A DNA stretch of 64,000 bases from contig NC_058339.1 in NCBI RefSeq assembly GCF_905475395.1, positions 56,987,172 to 57,051,171 of the forward strand, in the 5' to 3' direction. Below are positions 10,820 to 63,916 of the stretch, piece after piece. Position 1 is the first letter of the stretch, and every line of letters begins with the position of its first letter. Source of the stretch: Chrysoperla carnea. Lineage: Eukaryota; Arthropoda; Insecta; Neuroptera; Chrysopidae. The position numbers were made by a program, and so were the translations under genes. The notes under the pieces were generated by a model, which did not search any database, was not told the DNA's origin, and saw nothing but the letters and a program-made list of their open reading frames with translations.

Positions 10820-11880
10820 ATCCCCACCATTACTGCCACAAGAGACATGAGATATTAGTTTAAATTCATAATCATTAAGTGTAAAAGTTTACAAATATAC
10901 TTAGAAGTTAATTTTTATTTAATGTCACTGATGGTGACTTCCGTAATTCCGTTGAATTGTGGTATTATGTCAAGCAATATTACACCCGTAAGTGTCACTG
11001 GGGCAGAAAAATGTGCTCCCTCACTCCAATTATCTTCAATATTTTGTCAAAACAGTTAAATTATGGAGAAAATAAGACGCAAATTATTGCAAATGCTTCT
11101 ACCTCGAGAGTCTCAACACTTAAGCTACTTATATACAAGGAAACTTAAAACCTCTCGCAAATTTTTATCAGTTAATCTTCATTATTACTCTGAATGAAGG
11201 GGGGACATCCTTTTTTGAAAATTTTTTTACTATCAAAAATTTCTTTCGTATTTATCGGTAGACTTTCGGTGATCCACTATAATAAATATATTCCGATACG
11301 TATTTGGCAGTAAATCTGTTAAGATTGCTGAAGGTTGCTGGAAAATATATATGAACATATGCATAATAAATTTTAACCATGACAAACTATGCTAATATAA
11401 AATATTTGTGATATAGCAACGAATTTATTACGGTATCATGAGGCCAGTAGTACAAATCGAGGAAAATTACTAAACTCGATCTCCATTTCAAAGCAGTATA
11501 AGTCAATCAATTTAAAAGATATTTAAAACGATAATCACACAACATTTAAGAATAAAATTTCAAAAAAATTGAAACTTCCTCGCATATAGGTACTAAATTT
11601 TTAGGAAACTGTTTATGGTCTCAATACTTGAACTATTAAAAAGGGAACACTAAAAAATAATTTAATTAAAAATATATTTCTCAATTTATACAATTATTTC
11701 ATAAATATATTAGTATTATAAAAGTTTTAATATAAAAATATATTCAAATCAAAACAAACATGAAACTATGTATATAAAAAATTTACAAACCGGCGAATTA
11801 CGATTTACTTTAAATACATTTAAAGTGTCATTCACCACCAAATAATGCAATTAGATTTAAATTAGATAAACTTAATATTA
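10820..11880. other. intergenic, no gene seen
   Basis: AT-rich spacer between the poly(A) signal of gene 1 and the tandem duplication; one chance ORF (10957-11148). Confidence 0.4.
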
Positions 11881-12705
11881 TTTCCAGTTCAATTACAATT
11901 AAAAACTTTAAGCATTAAATAATCTTATCTTATAGAAATACAAAAAACTATAACGATAGCAATTTTTTCAAGTCTTAAATTTAGATTTGGAAACTTTTTT
12001 TAATTAAGATTGAAATACAATGCTAAATGTAAAGCTTGTTTTTTTTTTTTTTGGAATAATCCCAATTAAACATACTTTTTAATTTTGCTGAACCAAAGTT
12101 TTTCTTTGTGAAATTTGCTTAAAATTTAAAAACTTGTTCGTAAAATTTTTGAAAGCAATTTATCAACAATTTATAAACAAAAATCACAAATTTAATAACA
12201 AAACGTTTGGTTAAAAGTCAAGCAAAAAAAAAAAAATTTACAAACAACCGGTGTCTGTCTTACCTTAATTTTATTTCCAGTTCAATTACAATTAGAAACT
12301 TTAGGTACTAAATAATCTTATCTCATAGAAATACCAAAAACTACAACGATATCAATTTTTTGAAAGTTTTAAATTATTATTTGAAATTTACATTTGAAAA
12401 CTTTTTAAATTAACATTCGAATGCAAAATTTGAAGTTCTTTTTTTTTTAATAATCAAAACCAAACATACCTTTTAATTTTTTGTTGTAGAACCAACTATT
12501 TTTTTTGTGGAATTTGCTTAAATTTTAAAACTTTGTTCGTAAAATTTTTGTAAACAACGTAAGAAATAAAACAAAATAAAAATTTTTTGATTATTAATTT
12601 ATAAAAAAAAAAAAAACAAAAAAAAACACAAATTTAATTACAAACCGTTTGGTTAAAAATCACGCAAAATTTTTTTCACATACAACCGGTGTCTGTCTTA
12701 ACGTG
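11881..12705. repeat. tandem duplication of about 393-430 bp units
   Basis: Copy 1 (11881-12273) and copy 2 (12274-12705) share their starts (TTTCCAGTTCAATTACAATT) and ends (ACCGGTGTCTGTCTTA), and most of the sequence between, with indels mostly in poly-A/T runs. Confidence 0.8.
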
Positions 12706-23725: not shown

Positions 23726-24964
23726 CTGAAATAAAAGAAATGTATTAATTTGTCAACTTCACAATAAAATAAAATTCCCATTTATTAAAAATATTTAGAA
23801 CGTTTTTTGTAGACAAAAAAAATTCGTAGCGTAGAGGCTGCGTTATCTTAGCGAAATCCCGAAAAGATTGGAAAAATAACACATTTATGAGAACTTTTGA
23901 AAAATTAAAAAATCGGATATTGCATTTTTTTCGAAAACTAACTAATTTTTCTAGAATTTTTATTTCGAAAGCTAATCGTCTAGAGAAAAAATCACCTCAG
24001 AACTTTTTTGCTTAGCACTGATCAAAAAATACACAAATATTTTTATTTTGAAAAAATTCAAAATTTCGTACTTTGCGCAAATTTTGTAAATGAATTAAAC
24101 ACACCTGTGGATAGCTTTTGAGAACAGGCATTTCCAAACGATATGTCAATAACTCATTTTGATCAACCGGACAATATCCATTTAACAAACCATTGCATAC
24201 ATTCGGATCTGGTAATTCAAATACACCTTCGATACCAAAAACTATTGGATTCACTTTTGCCCATAATATATCGGAGTTATTTGCTAAAATAAAATAAATA
24301 TTTTTTAATTAATTGATATGCTAGTTTACCGAGTGAATGGAAACAATTTCTTCGATACATAGAATGTATACATTAAAATAATGCAACGTAGTTGTGCGAA
24401 AATAGTTATTTTACCATCTATTATGGTCGAGGTGTGGATGGTTTTCACAAATGCTTACTAACTAACCGAAACTTGAAAAAATTTCTTACTAAATCATAAG
24501 TTTTTCTTTAGTTATCTTTTTATTATCATAAATTATTTTATTATTATCTACGTCCGTTTATTCATGTGATCTGAATTTAGCTCGAATTTTTTTTCAATTT
24601 TATTTTTGTGATATCTTTTCAAAATTTTATTTACTATTATCCAGTGCGTTGCTTTGTTTTATAGTGGCACTGACATTAAAATAGTTCTCATTGTTATGTT
24701 TACTTACGAACGACAAAAGTTAAATCCATTATTGCATTTTGACCGCTTGGCAGTAAGCATGGTTCTTCAGTACAACCTTTTATATCTACATGTACTGGTT
24801 TTGGTGCTTCTACTTTACTACCTAAAAATAATTAATTAATTTGAGAATGATAGAACAATTAAATACCAGAAACTATTTATACATTCTGATACATCAACTG
24901 CAACTAGAATCGTGATCGATTCGATCATAAAAATAAAAGTTATTAATAAAATATTTTTATCCAT
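23636..24964 (-). CDS. Npc2: NPC2 / ML-domain intracellular cholesterol transporter, four exons, complete
   Basis: Small soluble lysosomal or secreted sterol-binding protein of the Niemann-Pick C2 (MD-2-related lipid-recognition) family. In insects the family is expanded and serves sterol homeostasis and binding of lipids or semiochemicals. Joining 24964-24883, 24821-24708, 24283-24105 and 23725-23636 gives 154 residues. Residues 1 to about 24 are a hydrophobic signal peptide (ILLITFIFMIESITILVA). Six cysteines fall in the family pattern at about 28, 44, 49, 95, 103 and 144, predicting disulfides 28-144, 44-49 and 95-103; C149 is an extra. Family hallmarks are FELPDPNVC and the LPVLKSYP-like MPVLKSYPQ. 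One sequon (N67-N-S) is present. Length is normal for NPC2. It stands alone, with no neighbouring paralogue in the window. A possible poly(A) signal (AATAAA on minus) lies at 23435-23440, about 200 bases after the stop. Which insect NPC2 paralogue this is cannot be said. Confidence 0.93.
24105..24283 (-). CDS. Npc2: Npc2 exon 3
   Basis: Acceptor is TTTATTTTAG, donor CAG|GTGTGT, phase 0. It encodes 59 full codons including ILWAKVNPIVFGIEGVFEL, the Cys95/Cys103 pair and MPVLKSYPQ, the most diagnostic part of the ML domain. Confidence 0.95.
24708..24821 (-). CDS. Npc2: Npc2 exon 2
   Basis: Acceptor is TTATTTTTAG; the split codon gives Cys28. It encodes the first beta strands with KGCTEEPC (Cys44, Cys49) and ends at a perfect GTAAGT donor, phase 1. 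Confidence 0.92.
24883..24964 (-). CDS. Npc2: Npc2 exon 1 (signal peptide)
   Basis: Starts at ATG 24964 and encodes MDKN plus the hydrophobic signal core through VDVSE; the first base of the next Cys codon precedes the donor T|GTATAA. Ends in phase 1. Confidence 0.88.
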
Positions 24965-38210: not shown

Positions 38211-38214
38211 TACC

Positions 38215-38280
38215 TATACCAAAATTTTGTTCGTAACATCAATATTTTTAAGCGTTACAAACTTGGGACTAAACTTGTCA
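38215..38280 (-). repeat. R1 family fragment (5' end only)
   Basis: Minus-strand match to the first part of R1: AGTCCCAAGTTTGTAACGCT and CAAAATTTTGGTATAGGT. Confidence 0.7.
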
Positions 38281-38682
38281 GTGAAATCTCAGCAACGTTT
38301 TTCAAACCCTTTTTGCGCTAATATAGGTTTTTATAAGTTTGAGAAACTTCATTTATTTTTAGTCTACTTTTAACTTATTTGTATAAAAATATTGCCTATA
38401 TTTTTTTAACACAAATATGTTTGCAGACTTTTTTGTTTCGAATTTTCTAAAGCATAAATGTATTTTTTTTTATTTTTCAAAAATTTTTAAGAGATACTAG
38501 ATCTCTACTATTTCAGCAAGAAAAACATTTAAAATGCCCATTGCACCAGACCTAAAACTCTAATTTGGGGAAAACTGGTTATAATCCAAATTTCAGAGCG
38601 CCTATTAAATAGATCATCTAGTTTCGTCTTGTCGTGCATTAAAATTTAATTTTTAATGAGTTTCAATGTTTAAATTTTGTTT

Positions 38683-39177
38683 TTATACCATGTATATATG
38701 AAATATACATAGTATATTAAGTTTAGTCCCAAATTTAAACCAAATCACCTAATTAGTCCATTCCGGTTGTCTGTCTGCTTGCCCGTCTATCGTCCGTCTA
38801 TCGTCTGTCTATCGTCCGTCTATCGCCTGTCTGTCCGTCTGTCATCACGATTACTCAAAAATGAAAAGACATATCCAGCTGATTTAGCACGCTATTTTTA
38901 TAGCGTAAAAAGTGAGGTCGAGTTCGTAAGTGAGCAACATAGGTCAATTGTTTAAATGTAAAAAAGTTTAAATGTAAAAAATCATCTTTATAAAAAAATA
39001 TACAACTTTTATTTGAAACATTCTTTCTTTTCTCATTACCCGTAAGAGCGCAAATTATGCGCAAATTGTATAGTATGTATTATATGGGAATATCAGTTAT
39101 ATATGTGTAATGTGACAGAGTAATCAACACTGTCTATACATGGTATTTTAACAATTGTTTGTTTTCACTTGTTTTTT
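38683..39177 (+). repeat. R1 family copy 2, with expanded minisatellite
   Basis: Has the R1 landmarks but lacks the TCCGTAGGACCCAT segment. The CTGTC/CCGTC tract is expanded to about 80 bases (38767-38843) as alternating GTCTGTCTATC / GTCCGTCTATC units. Ends at the R1 3' motif TTGTTTTCACTTG. Confidence 0.85.
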
Positions 39178-39188
39178 TCCTGAAAGAT

Positions 39189-39380
39189 TTATTGCTTCAC
39201 AAGTATGAAGTAAGCAAGCTCATGTGGTTTACTTCGTTTCATTGTTCTAGTGATATCACTTGTATCAAGTAGTCGGGTAGCTTCCTCATTGACGTGAGAT
39301 CTTAGCCGCTGAAGATGACGCACGACTGGTCGCTTTAGAGCTTCATTAATAGCTTCGATATGAAGTTCGGAGGTAAAGGT
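39189..39380 (-). pseudogene. LINE reverse-transcriptase ORF, C-terminal remnant
   Basis: An open minus-strand frame of 63 codons ending in TAA reads SELHIEAINEALKR, VVRHLQRLRSHVNEEATRLL, DTSDITRTMKRSKPHEL. This matches the C-terminal layout of Jockey-like non-LTR retrotransposon ORF2 proteins (R-L-x-x-H-x-N ... L-L-D ... R-x-x-K-R-x-x-P). The frame closes upstream (TGA), so only the 3' end remains. It is GC-richer than its flanks and abuts the end of R1 copy 2. Confidence 0.6.
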
Positions 39381-40707: not shown

Positions 40708-40713
40708 TTTATT
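40708..40713 (-). promoter_or_regulatory. possible poly(A) signal of the HEPN/TPR gene
   Basis: AATAAA on minus about 20 bases past the stop at 40733. In DNA this AT-rich the match has limited weight. Confidence 0.3.
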
Positions 40714-40732: not shown

Positions 40733-43700
40733 TCAAAAATGTTTTAAAATTTTTTCCAGTATATTCTCAGGACAATTTAATTGAGCTAAGCAACACATAA
40801 TTGCAATAAAATTGAAATAAACAAAAATTAATGGTCCACTGTATATTTTAATATTAATTATTATACAATGATTCAATAAATTATTTAATTTTGCTTTAAC
40901 TTGTGAGAAGCCTAATTTTAAAGTATTAAAACCACAATCTTTATCGATTAGTTTAACTATTTCTTGAAGTAAATTAAGTTTCACATAAACAATATTTTGA
41001 TGAAATATCATCAATTTATCATCGAGTATTTGTTTTTCATTTTCTAATACTTGATTCATTTGTTGTATTATTTTTTTATATTCATTTATGAGTTCTAATG
41101 GATTTTCAACTAAATACTTTTTCTTAAATTCAGTTTTTAAAATTAATATATGAAATTTGAAATCTAAGTCGTTTGTATCCATTAAAAAACATCGAAATAA
41201 TTCGTCTAATTCTTTAAATTTATCCCAAATAATATAAATATCAACCAATTCCTCGAATAATATGATTGATTTCAATTTATTTGATTGTAATTGATGATGT
41301 AATCTTGTATACTTTTGAATATTAATTTCAGTAACATTTGCATTTTTTTCTAATTTCGCAATTTCTTCAGATTTTTTAGGTTCTTTATTATTGCTACACG
41401 TCTTTATAATTTCTATCTCTGTTATTATTAATTCTCTTCGTTTTTTTAAATAAAAAATTGCTTTATGTAGAGAATCTTGATATCTATTACCATTTTTCAA
41501 ATTTAAAATTGCTATTCTGTGATAGCTTGCGCCTATGTTATGGTAGATGCCACATTTCTGTGTAAATTTTAAAATATTTAAGTTTTCAAAATTAATTTGT
41601 TCAATATATTCTACTGATTTACAATAGTTTTCCAATGAATATTTATCAAATAATTTATTTTTTAAATGACTATATGAAATAAATTTCTCCCCTAAATACA
41701 AATATTCAGAGCTTAAATCAATTAAAAAATCTACAAACATTTTATAATCTGCAATGTCTTCGTTATTACAAAATGATTTTTTAATAATAAATGGTTTTAA
41801 AATATTTAATCCTTTTTTGTAATAATTTATACGTTTTTCATAGTCAATTTTTGGTATATTAAATCTAATATATCCTTTATAAATTGCTGCTAAATGATAT
41901 GCAGATTGAGATTTAAATGAATGATTCTTCTGAACTTTATTAAAATAATTATGTGCTTTTATTAAAGTTTTTTTAAATTCCTTCTCAACAAATCCTTTGA
42001 CATGAACCATGCATAAACTAAAAAGCAATATAAAATGACAATAAATTTGATTTGATATTTCACTAATATTATTATTAATTATTATTAAATCATTAATAAA
42101 ATTATTAAATTTATCTTCAACTTGTTGTATTTGTAGATTCAAAGAATCTAAACCACAATAATTATTGCCAAGCATTACAATATATGTAAGTAAATCAATT
42201 TCTTTAACAATAAAATCTAGGTAGTAAAAAATATATCTATCACCAACTCTTTGTTTTATTTCTTTTTTATCATTTTTTAATAATTCATTCATTACTAATA
42301 AATTTTTTTTAGATTCATTTATGTATTTTAATGGATCTTCAATTGGCTTTCTTCTTAATATGGAATGTTTTATAAACAAACATTGAATCTTGATGTCCGA
42401 ATACCAAGCATGATTATTTAAATTATGTAAAATAAACTCAATTAATTCTTCTGCTTCTTTGTATTTGTTTAATAGATCATAAGCATAGACTAAATTTAAT
42501 TTATCATGTAAATGATTTGATAATTTTAAAAATCTTACACATTGTTTAATAACTTGTTGATCATAATTTTGATTATTTTTATGATAATATTTTATAATTT
42601 CACCACACATACAATTTAGATATGAATGAAAATCTGGGCTCAAATTATTTGGCTCTTTTATTAATTCAATTTTTTTATAAATTGGTTTGAATAATTCATA
42701 ACTTTTATCAAATTTATTAATTAAGTTATAAACATATAATAAACTTTTTATGAATTTTAAATACAAACTTATATTACACTCAAAGTTTTCCTCTTTATAG
42801 AGTTCCATTTGTGATAAATAATATTCTTGTGTATTAAGTTCTTCTAAATGTTTGATACCTTCTTCATAAAATTTAATAGCTTCATCGTCCATATCCAAAT
42901 CGAAGTAATATTCTCCTAAAGTATAGTGCCTTTGAACATTTATAGTCCCTTTAAAATTAAATGGATATTCATATAAATATATCGTAGATATTTTACAAAA
43001 ATGTTCACATGCAGGTAAAATATATTCTTTAATTTTATATCGTAAGGATTCTCTGTTTAAAGAAAATATATTATGCGCTAATTCACTTGATCGAGCTTTT
43101 TTTGATAAAATACCAGCTTCATAACTAACATTAGTTGGGATTGGTGGAATAAAATTACTGTCAAGTCTTATTACTTTACCATAATAGACATCTTGCAAAT
43201 CTCTGGTATATTGACCAATTAAAGATACAATATGATCCATAATATATTCTTCTTTTTTAGTTTTTATTTTCCGTTGTTCGATTTCTTCTAAATATTTTAT
43301 TTCATATGAAATATTTTTTAAAATATCCTTTAGTTTATAACGTGAGTCGACCAATTCAATGCTTTTATTTTGTTCATCAGTTAAATTTTTCATTGCCTCA
43401 CGTTCCTCCTTCAATTTATTAGCAAGATCAATTATTACTTTCTTGTTTTTTAATAAAGTTTCAGGGTACGATTTTACTATTTTAATTAACTTAACCAAAT
43501 GTGTCTTCTTTTCTATATATTCAATTTCCCCTCTTTTGATACCTTCTTTAATATCTTCTTGATTGTAAATATTTGGTTCTGTACCTTTTAACTTATTTAA
43601 GTTCTTATGATAGTTTATTTTTTCCCATACTTTTTTGTAGCCTTCTTGATAATGATTTTCGGAATCCTCAGTTAATTTTTTTCTAATTTCTTGATAATCT

Positions 43701-44779
43701 AAATCTATTTTATTCAACTTTAATTCAGTAAAATTTGGTAATTTATTAAAAGCATCAGCAGCAAATATTACTAAATTTATTAATTTATTATATAATTTTA
43801 TATGATTATTACAAAAATCCAAATCAGATGTACTAAATATATTTCCATCTTTTTTAACTTTTCTTTTAATAATGTCATTTAATTTTTTGGAATTAATTTT
43901 TAATGACTGCGCAGTTTTTAAGTCGTTCAAGTTAAATGAGAATGTATTATTTTCTTTATTAATATGAATAATTTTTAATAATTCTATTTTTATGTTTAAA
44001 ATATGATTTTCCATTTCCTCTTTAAAATCCACAATGTCTTCAATTTTTTTATGATTATGAATAAATAAATCCCTCGTTCTAATTAAGTTTTTCAAAGCAT
44101 TCCATAATTCAGATTTCTTTTGAATAATTCCATCTTCCAGAATTTCATGTAATAACTCCCCTACGATTATAAAAATTCTTTCTAAGTAATATAAATTATC
44201 TTTTTGGCTTAAATCAACATTTTCGAATGAATTTAACTCTTCTATAATCTTCTCAAGAGCAATTTGTTGGTATTGTTGAGATGATAATTCAATAAGATCC
44301 AACATATTATGCTCTATATGATTGTAATTTATTTCTAAGCGTTTCATTTGTTCTAGTAACTCGACATCAGATGGAAATTGATTTTCTTGACTTACAATAT
44401 GAACAATAATATTTTGTAAATTCCATAGATTATTTATAATTTTTTGTTTTTCAATTTCGTTGAAAATTAAATCTTGTTTTTGATCTTCTAACGCTGATAA
44501 AGTTTGCTTCAATTGATGTAGCTTTTTAAAATGGATTCCACCATTATTAATTTTGATTTGAGATTCGTTAATTCGTTGAATGTATCCGTATTTATTTCGA
44601 ATACATTCATTGTCTTTATTATTGAAAGATATTTCTCCAGCAAAATTTCCGATTCTAATTAATGTATTTATTATTGACTTCGAATCGAATGTGTCCTTTT
44701 CTAATTCATTAATAATTTTAAAAATTTCGAATAATTTTTGTATATCATTTTGTTTTCTTTTAATTTTGAGTTCATCCAT
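40733..44779 (-). CDS. intronless 1348-aa HEPN-like/TPR-like protein, probable acquired bacterial gene
   Basis: An intact ORF far longer than anything else here, with no introns. The start ATG has A at -3 and G at +4; AATAAA on minus follows the stop by about 20 bases (40708-40713). The protein is all-helical, Lys/Asn/Ile-rich and has no signal peptide or clear membrane span. Residues about 30-130 and 195-265 look like HEPN domains: each has a helix like IGNFAGEI or VGELLHEI, then a W-containing helix. The second keeps R236-x4-H241 (RDLFIHNH); the first has Q122-x4-H127 (LQNIIVHI). A third, degenerate unit may lie at 320-400. From about 560 on it reads as TPR-like helix pairs, best at 616-650 (LGEYYFDLDMDDEAIKFYEE). 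Residues about 796-935 and 1206-1346 are an internal duplication (EDPLKYINE / ENPLELINE; NYCGLDSLNLQIQQVEDKFN / DCGFNTLKLGFSQVKAKLN). Such proteins are known mainly from bacteria, including arthropod endosymbionts. Function is unknown; HEPN units often act as RNases or binding modules. Transfer is inferred. Confidence 0.85.
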   Translation of the reverse strand: MDELKIKRKQNDIQKLFEIFKIINELEKDTFDSKSIINTLIRIGNFAGEISFNNKDNECIRNKYGYIQRINESQIKINNGGIHFKKLHQLKQTLSALEDQKQDLIFNEIEKQKIINNLWNLQNIIVHIVSQENQFPSDVELLEQMKRLEINYNHIEHNMLDLIELSSQQYQQIALEKIIEELNSFENVDLSQKDNLYYLERIFIIVGELLHEILEDGIIQKKSELWNALKNLIRTRDLFIHNHKKIEDIVDFKEEMENHILNIKIELLKIIHINKENNTFSFNLNDLKTAQSLKINSKKLNDIIKRKVKKDGNIFSTSDLDFCNNHIKLYNKLINLVIFAADAFNKLPNFTELKLNKIDLDYQEIRKKLTEDSENHYQEGYKKVWEKINYHKNLNKLKGTEPNIYNQEDIKEGIKRGEIEYIEKKTHLVKLIKIVKSYPETLLKNKKVIIDLANKLKEEREAMKNLTDEQNKSIELVDSRYKLKDILKNISYEIKYLEEIEQRKIKTKKEEYIMDHIVSLIGQYTRDLQDVYYGKVIRLDSNFIPPIPTNVSYEAGILSKKARSSELAHNIFSLNRESLRYKIKEYILPACEHFCKISTIYLYEYPFNFKGTINVQRHYTLGEYYFDLDMDDEAIKFYEEGIKHLEELNTQEYYLSQMELYKEENFECNISLYLKFIKSLLYVYNLINKFDKSYELFKPIYKKIELIKEPNNLSPDFHSYLNCMCGEIIKYYHKNNQNYDQQVIKQCVRFLKLSNHLHDKLNLVYAYDLLNKYKEAEELIEFILHNLNNHAWYSDIKIQCLFIKHSILRRKPIEDPLKYINESKKNLLVMNELLKNDKKEIKQRVGDRYIFYYLDFIVKEIDLLTYIVMLGNNYCGLDSLNLQIQQVEDKFNNFINDLIIINNNISEISNQIYCHFILLFSLCMVHVKGFVEKEFKKTLIKAHNYFNKVQKNHSFKSQSAYHLAAIYKGYIRFNIPKIDYEKRINYYKKGLNILKPFIIKKSFCNNEDIADYKMFVDFLIDLSSEYLYLGEKFISYSHLKNKLFDKYSLENYCKSVEYIEQINFENLNILKFTQKCGIYHNIGASYHRIAILNLKNGNRYQDSLHKAIFYLKKRRELIITEIEIIKTCSNNKEPKKSEEIAKLEKNANVTEINIQKYTRLHHQLQSNKLKSIILFEELVDIYIIWDKFKELDELFRCFLMDTNDLDFKFHILILKTEFKKKYLVENPLELINEYKKIIQQMNQVLENEKQILDDKLMIFHQNIVYVKLNLLQEIVKLIDKDCGFNTLKLGFSQVKAKLNNLLNHCIIINIKIYSGPLIFVYFNFIAIMCCLAQLNCPENILEKILKHF

Positions 44780-44911
44780 TTTATTAAATCGAAGGTCAAA
44801 ATCTCTAAGTCGTTTTTAAGAATTTTTCTTCAACTAATATACTAAAAATAAAGCGTAATACAAATGAGTGTACGATTTTAAAAATGCTGTAGAAAGAAAA
44901 CTTATTTTTAC

Positions 44912-45252
44912 AATATCATTAGTAACGTATGAGTTAGTGGCGCAAATGTTTCTATTTAATAATAAACCATAAATGGTCAATTCAATGGAACGGCGCCGGT
45001 TAATGTTAAAGTTGAATTACATAATTAATAAATAGGCAACTTGAACTACGTAAACGTTTTACATGTAAAATAGTCTTCATTTATTTGATAAAAACTTAAC
45101 ATTTGCGTCATACAAGTTGCCTAATTACTATTTTTTTAAGTAAATTTTAACTAAATTCTTTAAATTTTAAGTAAATTCATTGAATTAAAAATTTATTGTT
45201 TATTAACAAATAGAAACATTTGCTCCACTAACTCATGCGTTACTAATGATAT
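44912..45252. mobile_element. hairpin MITE immediately upstream of the HEPN/TPR gene
   Basis: Near-perfect inverted arms of about 47 bases (44912-44958 and 45205-45252; core CATTAGTAACGYATGAGTTA) enclose about 245 bases. A further inner inverted pair is centred on GGCAACTTG / CAAGTTGCC. No ORF inside. It is a non-autonomous foldback DNA element. Its inner edge is 133 bases from the ATG of the large ORF. Confidence 0.75.
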
Positions 45253-45350
45253 TTGACACCTAAGAAACACACTCTATGAGGTTTCAGCATAATATGACCG
45301 ATTTCTTCCATTTTCATTTATTACTCGATTTTTGTAAATCTTTTACTGTA

Positions 45351-45570
45351 CTAAATTAAAACCCGACTGCGCTAAATAAAATCTTAGAAGAAAGAAACAA
45401 ATATAGTAGTTTACATAAATATAACACTTGGGACCCATTATTGGGAAGATTTGAGCCAGTCTATTTATTAATGAGCTACAACTGTTAAAGTCGCTATGTA
45501 AACTACAGGATTTGTTTCTTTCTTTTCTGATTTTATTTAACGCTATCAGGTTTTCGATTTTTTTAATTAT
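45351..45570. mobile_element. second hairpin MITE
   Basis: Inverted arms of about 65 bases (45351-45417 and 45496-45570), sharing GTAGTTTACATA, AAGAAAGAAACAAAT and GCGTTAAATAAAATC-like blocks around an 80-base loop. It is unrelated in sequence to the neighbouring MITE. Confidence 0.7.
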
Positions 45571-61341: not shown

Positions 61342-61466
61342 CTAATCGAATAACATTAAATTTGCAGGTAGCGGTTTCTGATCAGTCTGTGATGATGCAA
61401 GTTGAATGTGTCGGCACCATTTTTCGGCTTTCGCTTTTGTACCGGCTCGGAATTTATATACATTTC
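61342..61466 (-). CDS. RALGPS: RALGPS terminal exon: end of PH domain
   Basis: Acceptor is TTATTTTTAG. It encodes NVYKFRAGTKAEAEKWC and the end of the amphipathic helix, then PLPANLMLFD and TAG. The next AATAAA on minus is about 50 bases downstream. Confidence 0.9.
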
Positions 61467-63916
61467 CTAAAAATAAATATAAATATTAAGTAAATATTTT
61501 TTTATTAATGGCATCTTGAATATCGTCACGATACTTACTTTTTTGTGGATCCAATAGTTGGAATAGATCTGGTTGTAAAGCATTTTCACCCATAACCGCT
61601 GTCCAACCTACAATATCAACCATTTTACATGGTTCCCGTTTAAAATCGGATCGTGAATTTCTACAAATCAAAAATTCCGTTAAAAATGTTAGTAAGAAAA
61701 GAATTATTTAGTTTTAGTACTTACCCTTTAAAACTTTTTGGAGAAAAATATACAAGTGATGAAGCCCATATTTGTATCCAATATCTTTGCCATGAAGATA
61801 CTGTGGGCTTTTTATTTTCTTTTAACACAGTTTTTCGACGAACACAACCTTGCATAGACGTTTCGCTGCCATCCTCCGATAAATCATCGTCATCAAGTGA
61901 CTGAAGTAATAAATTACATTGATCCTCACTGGCAAACGATGGTACACGGGATATAGTAGCTATTGAAGATGTCTCACCAATACTATCTGTTTCAATTGAT
62001 AATGTTTCTTCCATAACAGAATCATCCAACAAATGTATGGTTTTGGGACAACCATCTTTTAGATCAACCGAAACTTGCTGTTGATGACATTTATGAAAAA
62101 TACTGAAAAAATACAATAAAAATATTAGTATTATTCATGAAATATAATTTTCAATTTATTACACATATTAGGCATACAAAATAAAAATTTTGTTTTAAAA
62201 AGCAATTTCTTACAAAAGTGCTGTACAAAAAAGGGCATGCCATTGATTTTATGAATATGTAAAAATGAATATGAATGAACCATGGATAAAATACGGAGAA
62301 AATACTTAATGTGTTAGTAGACTCGTAATTAACCATTGATTTAATTAAAGGATTTAATTAAATAGTAAGTTATGAGAGACTTTGTGTTTATTATTTAGAA
62401 AATACAATAGGGGATCGGACTCAAGTGAAGTTGGTTTATAAAAATTCTTTACTAGTATGCAAGATATGAACGTTTAAAATTCCTAACTAAACAAAGAGGG
62501 AGATACCCACTAGTGACGTCATACGTGGGTATCGCCATACAGATTCTATTATAAAACTTTGTTTTGCTAAAAGTAGATAGGCAAGCTTTGAATGCAATCT
62601 TTGATTGCTTATAACTTCTTCGTATTTTAATCAATTTTAATTTCACTTTCAAATTTTGTCATGGTATCCAGTCTAATTTTACATTTTTATGGATAATATG
62701 GCCAATTCGACATCAGAATTATCCCCTATTCGAATAATTTTTAATTATTTATTTAAAAAACTACACTTCCAGCCAAAAATCAAATTACGGACAAAAAATA
62801 AGAACCAACCAACTGTAAATTTCCTGAAATTGGTTAAAACTGTTCACCAGGTAAGCGGTATTACTACAAGTAGATAAAACATACCCACAAAATGTCAATT
62901 GTTACATCCGTATTTTACCCATTTTTAGATACAAATAAATAAAAATAATTTTTATATTATGTAATTTGTTAAATATTGTTATTGATTATCCTAAAAGAAA
63001 ATGATTTAATGTAAAATATTTACAAACATGAAGGGAAATAAAACCGTGCGAATTTTCATGTTCTTTGGAATCAATATTTTTATTTCAAACCAAATAAAAA
63101 ATCATGCCAAAAAATAATGAAAAATATATTAGTACAAGATAAGGACGAAACTACCGATGTGTTTTTCGTGCATATCAGGAGGAGAACAAATTTATAACGG
63201 CTAAAAAAAATTATTTTTTCTGATTTTGATGTAACTAACTTTAACTAACTGCAACATTCTTTAATGTTGGATATATCTCTAGTATTTGTCAAAAACAAGC
63301 TTTTTAATACATCGTATCTGACGACTATAAACTTCCAGTAGGTACATAAGCTTAAAAGTTAAGCAAAAAAAAATTATATATAAATTTATTCAATTCACAA
63401 TGAGATTTCCTAGAAAAAAATAAAGACGGTTTTCTTTTACTAATCACAGCTTATTAGAATTGAACTCACTCCTTAAAGCCTCGTCTTACTTCTTTCCCCC
63501 ACTTTAATTTTAAAAGTTTGAAAAATACAAAACAGACAATATAAATTATATCTGTTTTCAAATGATATGACTAATCCATACTACTGTCATCAATTGAGCA
63601 AATAAAAATTAGAAAACAAAAACTAATTTATAAATTTCACAATTAAAAATAATTTAGAAAAAAAAGCAATAATTTCTAAAATTAAAAAAAAAAATCGTAG
63701 AGTAATAATTCCAAAATATAATATTTACAATTTGTACTGAACAATCATGCGATGCCAACCAATATGATTATTAGATATTTTTAATTACGTAATGGACGGT
63801 TAAAATTTGCGATATACAGAGAGATAACTCACCCACCACAGGTTGGGGCGATACCAATTGTGCCACAAGGTCCCACCTGTTTATGAAAGTTTCGTGGAAG
63901 ACTTGTACTACGGAAT
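61342..63916 (-). CDS. RALGPS: RALGPS (Ral GEF with PH domain), C-terminal four exons, gene continues past right edge
   Basis: Ral guanine-nucleotide exchange factor with PH domain and SH3-binding motif; it activates the small GTPase Ral at membranes. Exons 63916-63833, 62102-61725, 61660-61539 and 61466-61342 join with matching phases (2, 2, 1) and end at TAG. In order they encode a basic/Ser linker (FRSTSLPRNFHKQ), an acidic low-complexity segment (SLDDDDLSEDGSETSM), and the PH domain from GCVRRKTVLKE through SSWQRYWIQIWASSLVYF, CKMVDIVGW and DLFQLLDP to NVYKFRAGTK and the C-terminal helix AEKWCRHIQLASS with its conserved Trp. The last residues, PLPANLMLFD, also match the family. The RasGEF catalytic domain lies upstream, outside the window. 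A poly(A) signal (AATAAA on minus) lies at 61290-61295. Confidence 0.9.
61539..61660 (-). CDS. RALGPS: RALGPS exon: middle of PH domain
   Basis: Acceptor is GATTTGTAG; donor is A|GTAAGT. It encodes 40 full codons (DFKREPCKMVDIVGW, then DLFQLLDPQK), the central strands of the PH domain. Confidence 0.92.
61725..62102 (-). CDS. RALGPS: RALGPS exon: acidic linker and start of PH domain
   Basis: Acceptor is TATTTTTTCAG; donor is GG|GTAAGT. It has 125 full codons: a Gln/Val region, an acidic Ser-rich stretch and the first beta strands of the PH domain (RRKTVLKENKKP, SSWQRYWIQIW, SLVYFSPKSFK). Confidence 0.9.
62103..63832. other. RALGPS intron with repeat fragments
   Basis: Between the linker exon and the PH-domain exon. 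A segment at about 62450-62680 holds GATACCCAC...GTGGGTATC, an inverted pair around GTGACGTCAT. A stretch near 62830 (AAATTGGTTAAAACTGTTCA) resembles the tail of a common retroelement. The 62-codon plus ORF at 62689 falls in this repeat. Confidence 0.45.
63833..63916 (-). CDS. RALGPS: RALGPS linker exon
   Basis: Acceptor is CTCTACTTCAG; donor is GG|GTGAGT. It encodes 27 full codons (FRSTSLPRNFHKQ, then VGPCGTIGIAPTCG). The two bases left over combine with the first base of the next exon to give Gly, which fixes the frame. Confidence 0.8.

Follow-up and report, generated by a model that had tools for sequence, protein, structure and literature searches.

Solenoid proteins of the TPR class include LGN/GPSM2 and the Rap-type regulators. 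HEPN-domain proteins are recognised by a signature motif, RX4-6H. Large TPR proteins belong also to bacterial endosymbionts, and TPR genes are listed for Rickettsia, the R. felis plasmid included (PMC2635572). Here we describe a gene in a 64,000-nucleotide stretch of the genome of the neuropteran insect Chrysoperla carnea (NCBI RefSeq assembly GCF_905475395.1, contig NC_058339.1, forward-strand positions 56,987,172 to 57,051,171), which we call the window and within which all coordinates are given. The gene is a single-exon open reading frame of 1348 codons, running from ATG to TGA at 40733-44779 on the minus strand. The frame is intact, has a coding-type composition, carries a C-terminal duplication and lies among recurring repeats. 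We favour, with moderate confidence, the reading that this is a real, intact, fast-evolving single-exon gene in animal chromosomal DNA, coding for a helical-repeat scaffold protein.

The locus can be set beside each of these known systems. Like the TPR solenoid proteins, its product is predicted to be mostly helical, it has one TPR match that falls below threshold, and a low-confidence model of its C-terminal half loosely resembles LGN, Scc4 and Rap. Unlike them, it has no TPR at the Pfam cut-off, and sequence comparison with PDB returned only marginal rows. With the large TPR proteins of endosymbionts such as Rickettsia (PMC2635572) it shares a TPR-like character, low G+C and, presumably, interaction with a host, whereas the frame has no match in plasmids (E up to 1), genome contigs or the protein collection. 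One RX4H motif at aa 236 recalls the HEPN-domain proteins, but the frame matches no HEPN profile and its motif count is within chance.

The open frame and its internal duplication

The coordinates, the length and the absence of introns, all put forward in the original prediction, were confirmed; the strand was missing from that prediction. Measured from stop to stop, the frame spans 1360 codons, and the second-longest stop-free frame in the window has 146. Given how often stops occur in the window itself (6.9%), an open frame of 1360 codons would arise by chance with a probability of about 4e-43. The G+C content at the three codon positions is 33.0/17.6/15.7%. The segment 40733-44779 is genuine coding sequence, past or present. 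Its product is rich in Lys, Ile and Asn and has a mass of roughly 160 kDa, as estimated from the residue count. About 20 nt past the stop codon, an AATAAA read by eye (40708-40713, minus strand) could be a polyadenylation signal, though such a site is weak evidence in DNA this rich in AT. When further pieces of the gene were sought elsewhere in the window, tblastn gave a single match at E 3.4.

The C-terminal part of the protein contains two copies of one repeat. Copy A covers aa 626-939 (41963-42904, minus strand) and copy B covers aa 1018-1345 (40745-41728, minus strand). Their local alignment scores 216, whereas 500 shuffles averaged 63.6 and never exceeded 102. Alignment of the copies by hhalign gave a probability of 96.5% with 36% identity over 135 columns, and at the DNA level blastn found 67% identity over 280 nt of the core. 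When the protein was scanned in 150-residue blocks with 60 shuffles each, the top four of 120 block pairs (z 13.6, 12.5, 11.4, and 6.7) all fell within this repeat, and the next reached z 3.5. Repeated units in the N-terminal aa 1-560 are unproved by these comparisons: aa 1-300 and 301-560 align with a score of 96, reached in 1 of 300 shuffles, and the best block pair there has z 3.5.

The two copies also offer a view of how fast the protein changes. In the core, which comprises 91 codons, pN is 0.330 and pS 0.292, a ratio of 1.13. In simulations at omega 1 (40 each under three mutation settings) the mean ratios were 1.07, 1.01, and 0.88, and the observed ratio was reached in 15, 10, and 2 of the 40; at omega 0.5 it was reached in 1, 1, and 0. 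Over 168 codons pS and pN are 0.409 and 0.394, and over all 293 aligned codons, where saturation is likely, they are 0.442 and 0.450. The second codon position differs least within the core (0.253 vs 0.407 and 0.308 at the other two), which counts against fully unconstrained evolution. Replacement and silent changes at about equal rates in a frame that is kept open suggest fast protein evolution. This is read from one pair of copies, and the fast change may have taken place before the gene arrived in this genome.

The age of the frame was approached by neutral simulation (400 runs each, assuming 0.08 frame-breaking indels per substitution). The fraction of frames still intact was 0.27 at 0.2% divergence and 0.06 at 0.5%, and at 1% it was 0/400. 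Since all neutral frames are broken by 1% divergence, the 1348-codon frame is either selected or very young. The proposal that selection has kept it open thus holds in part: such a frame is unlikely to stay open unless it is selected or very recent.

Domain content of the predicted protein

The original prediction saw HEPN-like units at the N-terminus followed by TPR-like repeats, and the two halves of this architecture fared differently. The best TPR-like match lies at aa 618-643 (42851-42928, minus strand), where Pfam TPR_8 gives E 0.00088 and 19.7 bits, below its curated cut-off of 25.7. The families TPR_2, TPR_1, and TPR_14 match more weakly at the same place, around aa 618-644, and all are sub-threshold. 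We found no series of curated 34-residue units and no TPR above the Pfam cut-off. A scan of the C-terminal half with a TPR consensus found three strong sites, which begin at 615, 747, and 1016, and 5 of 500 shuffles had as many; at two looser thresholds the count was equalled by 42 and 105 of 500. Single-sequence models, of low confidence, are mostly helical. Loose structure matches to the low-confidence model of the C-terminal half include chains of LGN, Scc4, and Rap, with LGN and other TPR proteins turning up repeatedly. The PDB sequence search, with E up to 1 allowed, gave nine rows; a PPR protein ranked first (E 0.00085), and no stretch passed alone. Taken on the sequence, the TPR character of the C-terminal half is weakly supported.

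The remaining profile searches add little to this picture. Pfam DUF952 matches the 1348-aa protein at E 0.16, PHROGs gave two rows of unknown function (E 0.08 and 0.13), and NCBIfam and PADLOC profiles did not match it. With E up to 1 allowed, none of the four libraries (Pfam, NCBIfam, PHROGs, and PADLOC) yielded a HEPN family. The protein holds six RX4-6H motifs, and as many occur in 72 of 1000 shuffles. The RX4H motif at aa 236-241 (44057-44074, minus strand), found by motif scan and not significant, is likely to be the basis of the HEPN suggestion. The likeness between aa 1-150 and 151-300, the two proposed units, is at chance level (reached in 91 of 500 shuffles). Among the 50 structure matches listed of 555 for the N-terminal half, none was named HEPN, which says little given the poor single-sequence model. 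The claimed N-terminal units are accordingly not borne out, and the HEPN reading is not supported by the profile searches, the motif shuffles, and the comparison of the two units; what is left of the claimed architecture is a weakly TPR-like C-terminal half.

If the preferred reading of a helical-repeat scaffold is correct, the product would be mostly helical and its C-terminal half would fold into a TPR-like solenoid on which partner proteins are bound. Duplication may have lengthened this solenoid, the duplicated unit being about 390-410 residues long. The frame would stay open while the amino-acid sequence shifts quickly, as in genes that track a moving partner.

Origin of the gene

The alternative that survives best, which we regard as possible though rather unlikely, is that the insect acquired the gene from a bacterial endosymbiont rich in AT, such as one of the Rickettsiales or Cardinium, and kept it as a fast-evolving TPR-type host-interaction protein. 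An intron-free, orphan frame with a Lys/Ile/Asn-rich product and a weak TPR signal speaks for it, as do the TPR genes recorded for Rickettsia and the R. felis plasmid (PMC2635572). The loss of the HEPN assignment weakens it, however, and so does the absence of any bacterial relative. Among approximately 5.8 billion proteins no relative was found with the whole protein as query (E up to 0.01, scoring the 7991 candidates that had most words in common with it), nor, at E up to 10, with aa 490-700 (509 candidates) or aa 1-300 (4263 candidates). Pattern scans of genome contigs, in which 20 and 588 stretches matched the pattern, gave no relative, nor did the phage collection. The plasmid collection, whose Rickettsia records were not checked singly, gave no match at E up to 1, and no title among those listed in the literature searches describes such a gene. 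Because the protein and contig searches depend mostly on exact short words, fairly close relatives are excluded but distant ones are not, and no insect or other eukaryotic genome collection was among those searched. The bacterial donor proposed at the outset is therefore unsupported by proteins, genome contigs, plasmids, phages or viral contigs, and is not refuted.

Some features of the frame itself also count against a bacterial source, although composition does not decide the matter. Between 40200 and 45300 there are 53 bacterial promoter-like sites against 47.8 (standard deviation 7.8) in shuffles, which is chance level. Terminator-like sites number 0 in the same interval, which says little because only 0.4 are expected by chance. 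No ribosome-binding site is visible by eye ahead of the ATG, and no second long frame lies alongside. The frame has a G+C content of 22.1%, vs 26.1% in the near flanks, and its third positions are poorer in G+C than those of host exon pieces (212/1349 vs 62/260, p 0.002). Once amino acids are matched, synonymous G+C3 is 14.3% in the frame vs 17.3% expected from host usage, for which 260 codons from a few exons within the window were used. Since this is near the host value, composition is little evidence of foreign origin. The CpG observed/expected ratio of the frame is 0.89, compared with 1.07 for the remainder of the window.

We consider it unlikely that the frame is a recent, non-functional insertion in which decay has not yet begun. 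The simulated frames that outlast 0.2% neutral divergence leave room for this explanation, but it sits poorly with a codon usage that, matched for amino acids, is already near the host's, and no near-identical donor was present in the collections searched. Two palindromic elements resembling miniature inverted-repeat transposable elements directly upstream of the ATG also count against it, with the reservation that they may be older or younger than the gene. The first, at 44912-45253, lies about 130 bp from the ATG and has 87-nt arms (44901-44987 and 45178-45264) that are 85% complementary; the second is at 45358-45554. By blastn, neither has another long copy in the window.

AT-rich insect DNA viruses can leave single genes in insect genomes, and a long AT-rich frame without introns would suit such an endogenous viral gene. 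Scans of viral contigs gave no relative, however, and no companion frame exceeds 146 codons in the window, and we judge a viral origin improbable. It is similarly a long shot that the frame is a domesticated gene of an unsampled symbiont or virus lineage, shaped by diversifying selection and by duplication of repeat units within a conflict system, be it antiviral defence, symbiont control or a selfish element. An assembly chimera, in which symbiont or contaminant sequence was joined to an insect contig, is very improbable: the frame is a lower-G+C island with a fairly sharp rise in G+C just beyond its ATG side, but the low-G+C stretch coincides with a single gene, has no bacterial neighbour and has copies of the repeat family R1 on both sides. 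That R1 brackets the gene, as first proposed, was upheld; the left copies at 38212-39177 match 16.2-16.7, 47.9-48.1, 51.0-51.5, and 54.2-54.8 kb.

The preferred reading of a fast-evolving scaffold gene leaves two routes of origin, namely capture from an unsampled AT-rich symbiont or virus and descent as a lineage-specific host gene. We lean slightly to capture because of the gene's length, its lack of introns, and the absence of recognised relatives.

Chromosomal surroundings and significance

The surrounding DNA looks, from its sequence, like repeat-bearing, animal-type chromosomal DNA. An ML-domain (lipid-recognition) exon lies at 24012-24308 on the minus strand (Pfam PF02221, E 2.4e-07). 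It was the only match among 10 pieces of other frames in the window compared with Pfam at E up to 0.1; in a second set, 4 of 8 frames gave weak rows, none above its own cut-off. With a piece of human RALGPS1 as query, tblastn (filters off) located the C-terminal end of a RalGPS-like gene at 61345-61653, minus strand (E 8e-14). The exon at 61721-62065 on the same strand, which Pfam did not recognise, may belong to this gene as well. A placement of the 1348-codon frame inside RalGPS was rejected, the C-terminal end of RalGPS being upstream on the same strand. An exon-like 63-codon frame with 42% G+C lies at 39192-39380 on the minus strand and has no family match above cut-off. A 393-base unit is repeated in tandem at 11871-12626 (about 1.9 copies, 74% matches). 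The window yielded no tRNA, and no Rfam family reached the gathering score in it.

The evidence establishes a gene, but does not extend to its origin or to its putative scaffold role. If conserved in related species, it would stand as an insect gene that is long, lacks introns, evolves fast, and has no recognised relatives. It would then represent either the rare capture of a very large gene or a scaffold gene specific to the lineage.
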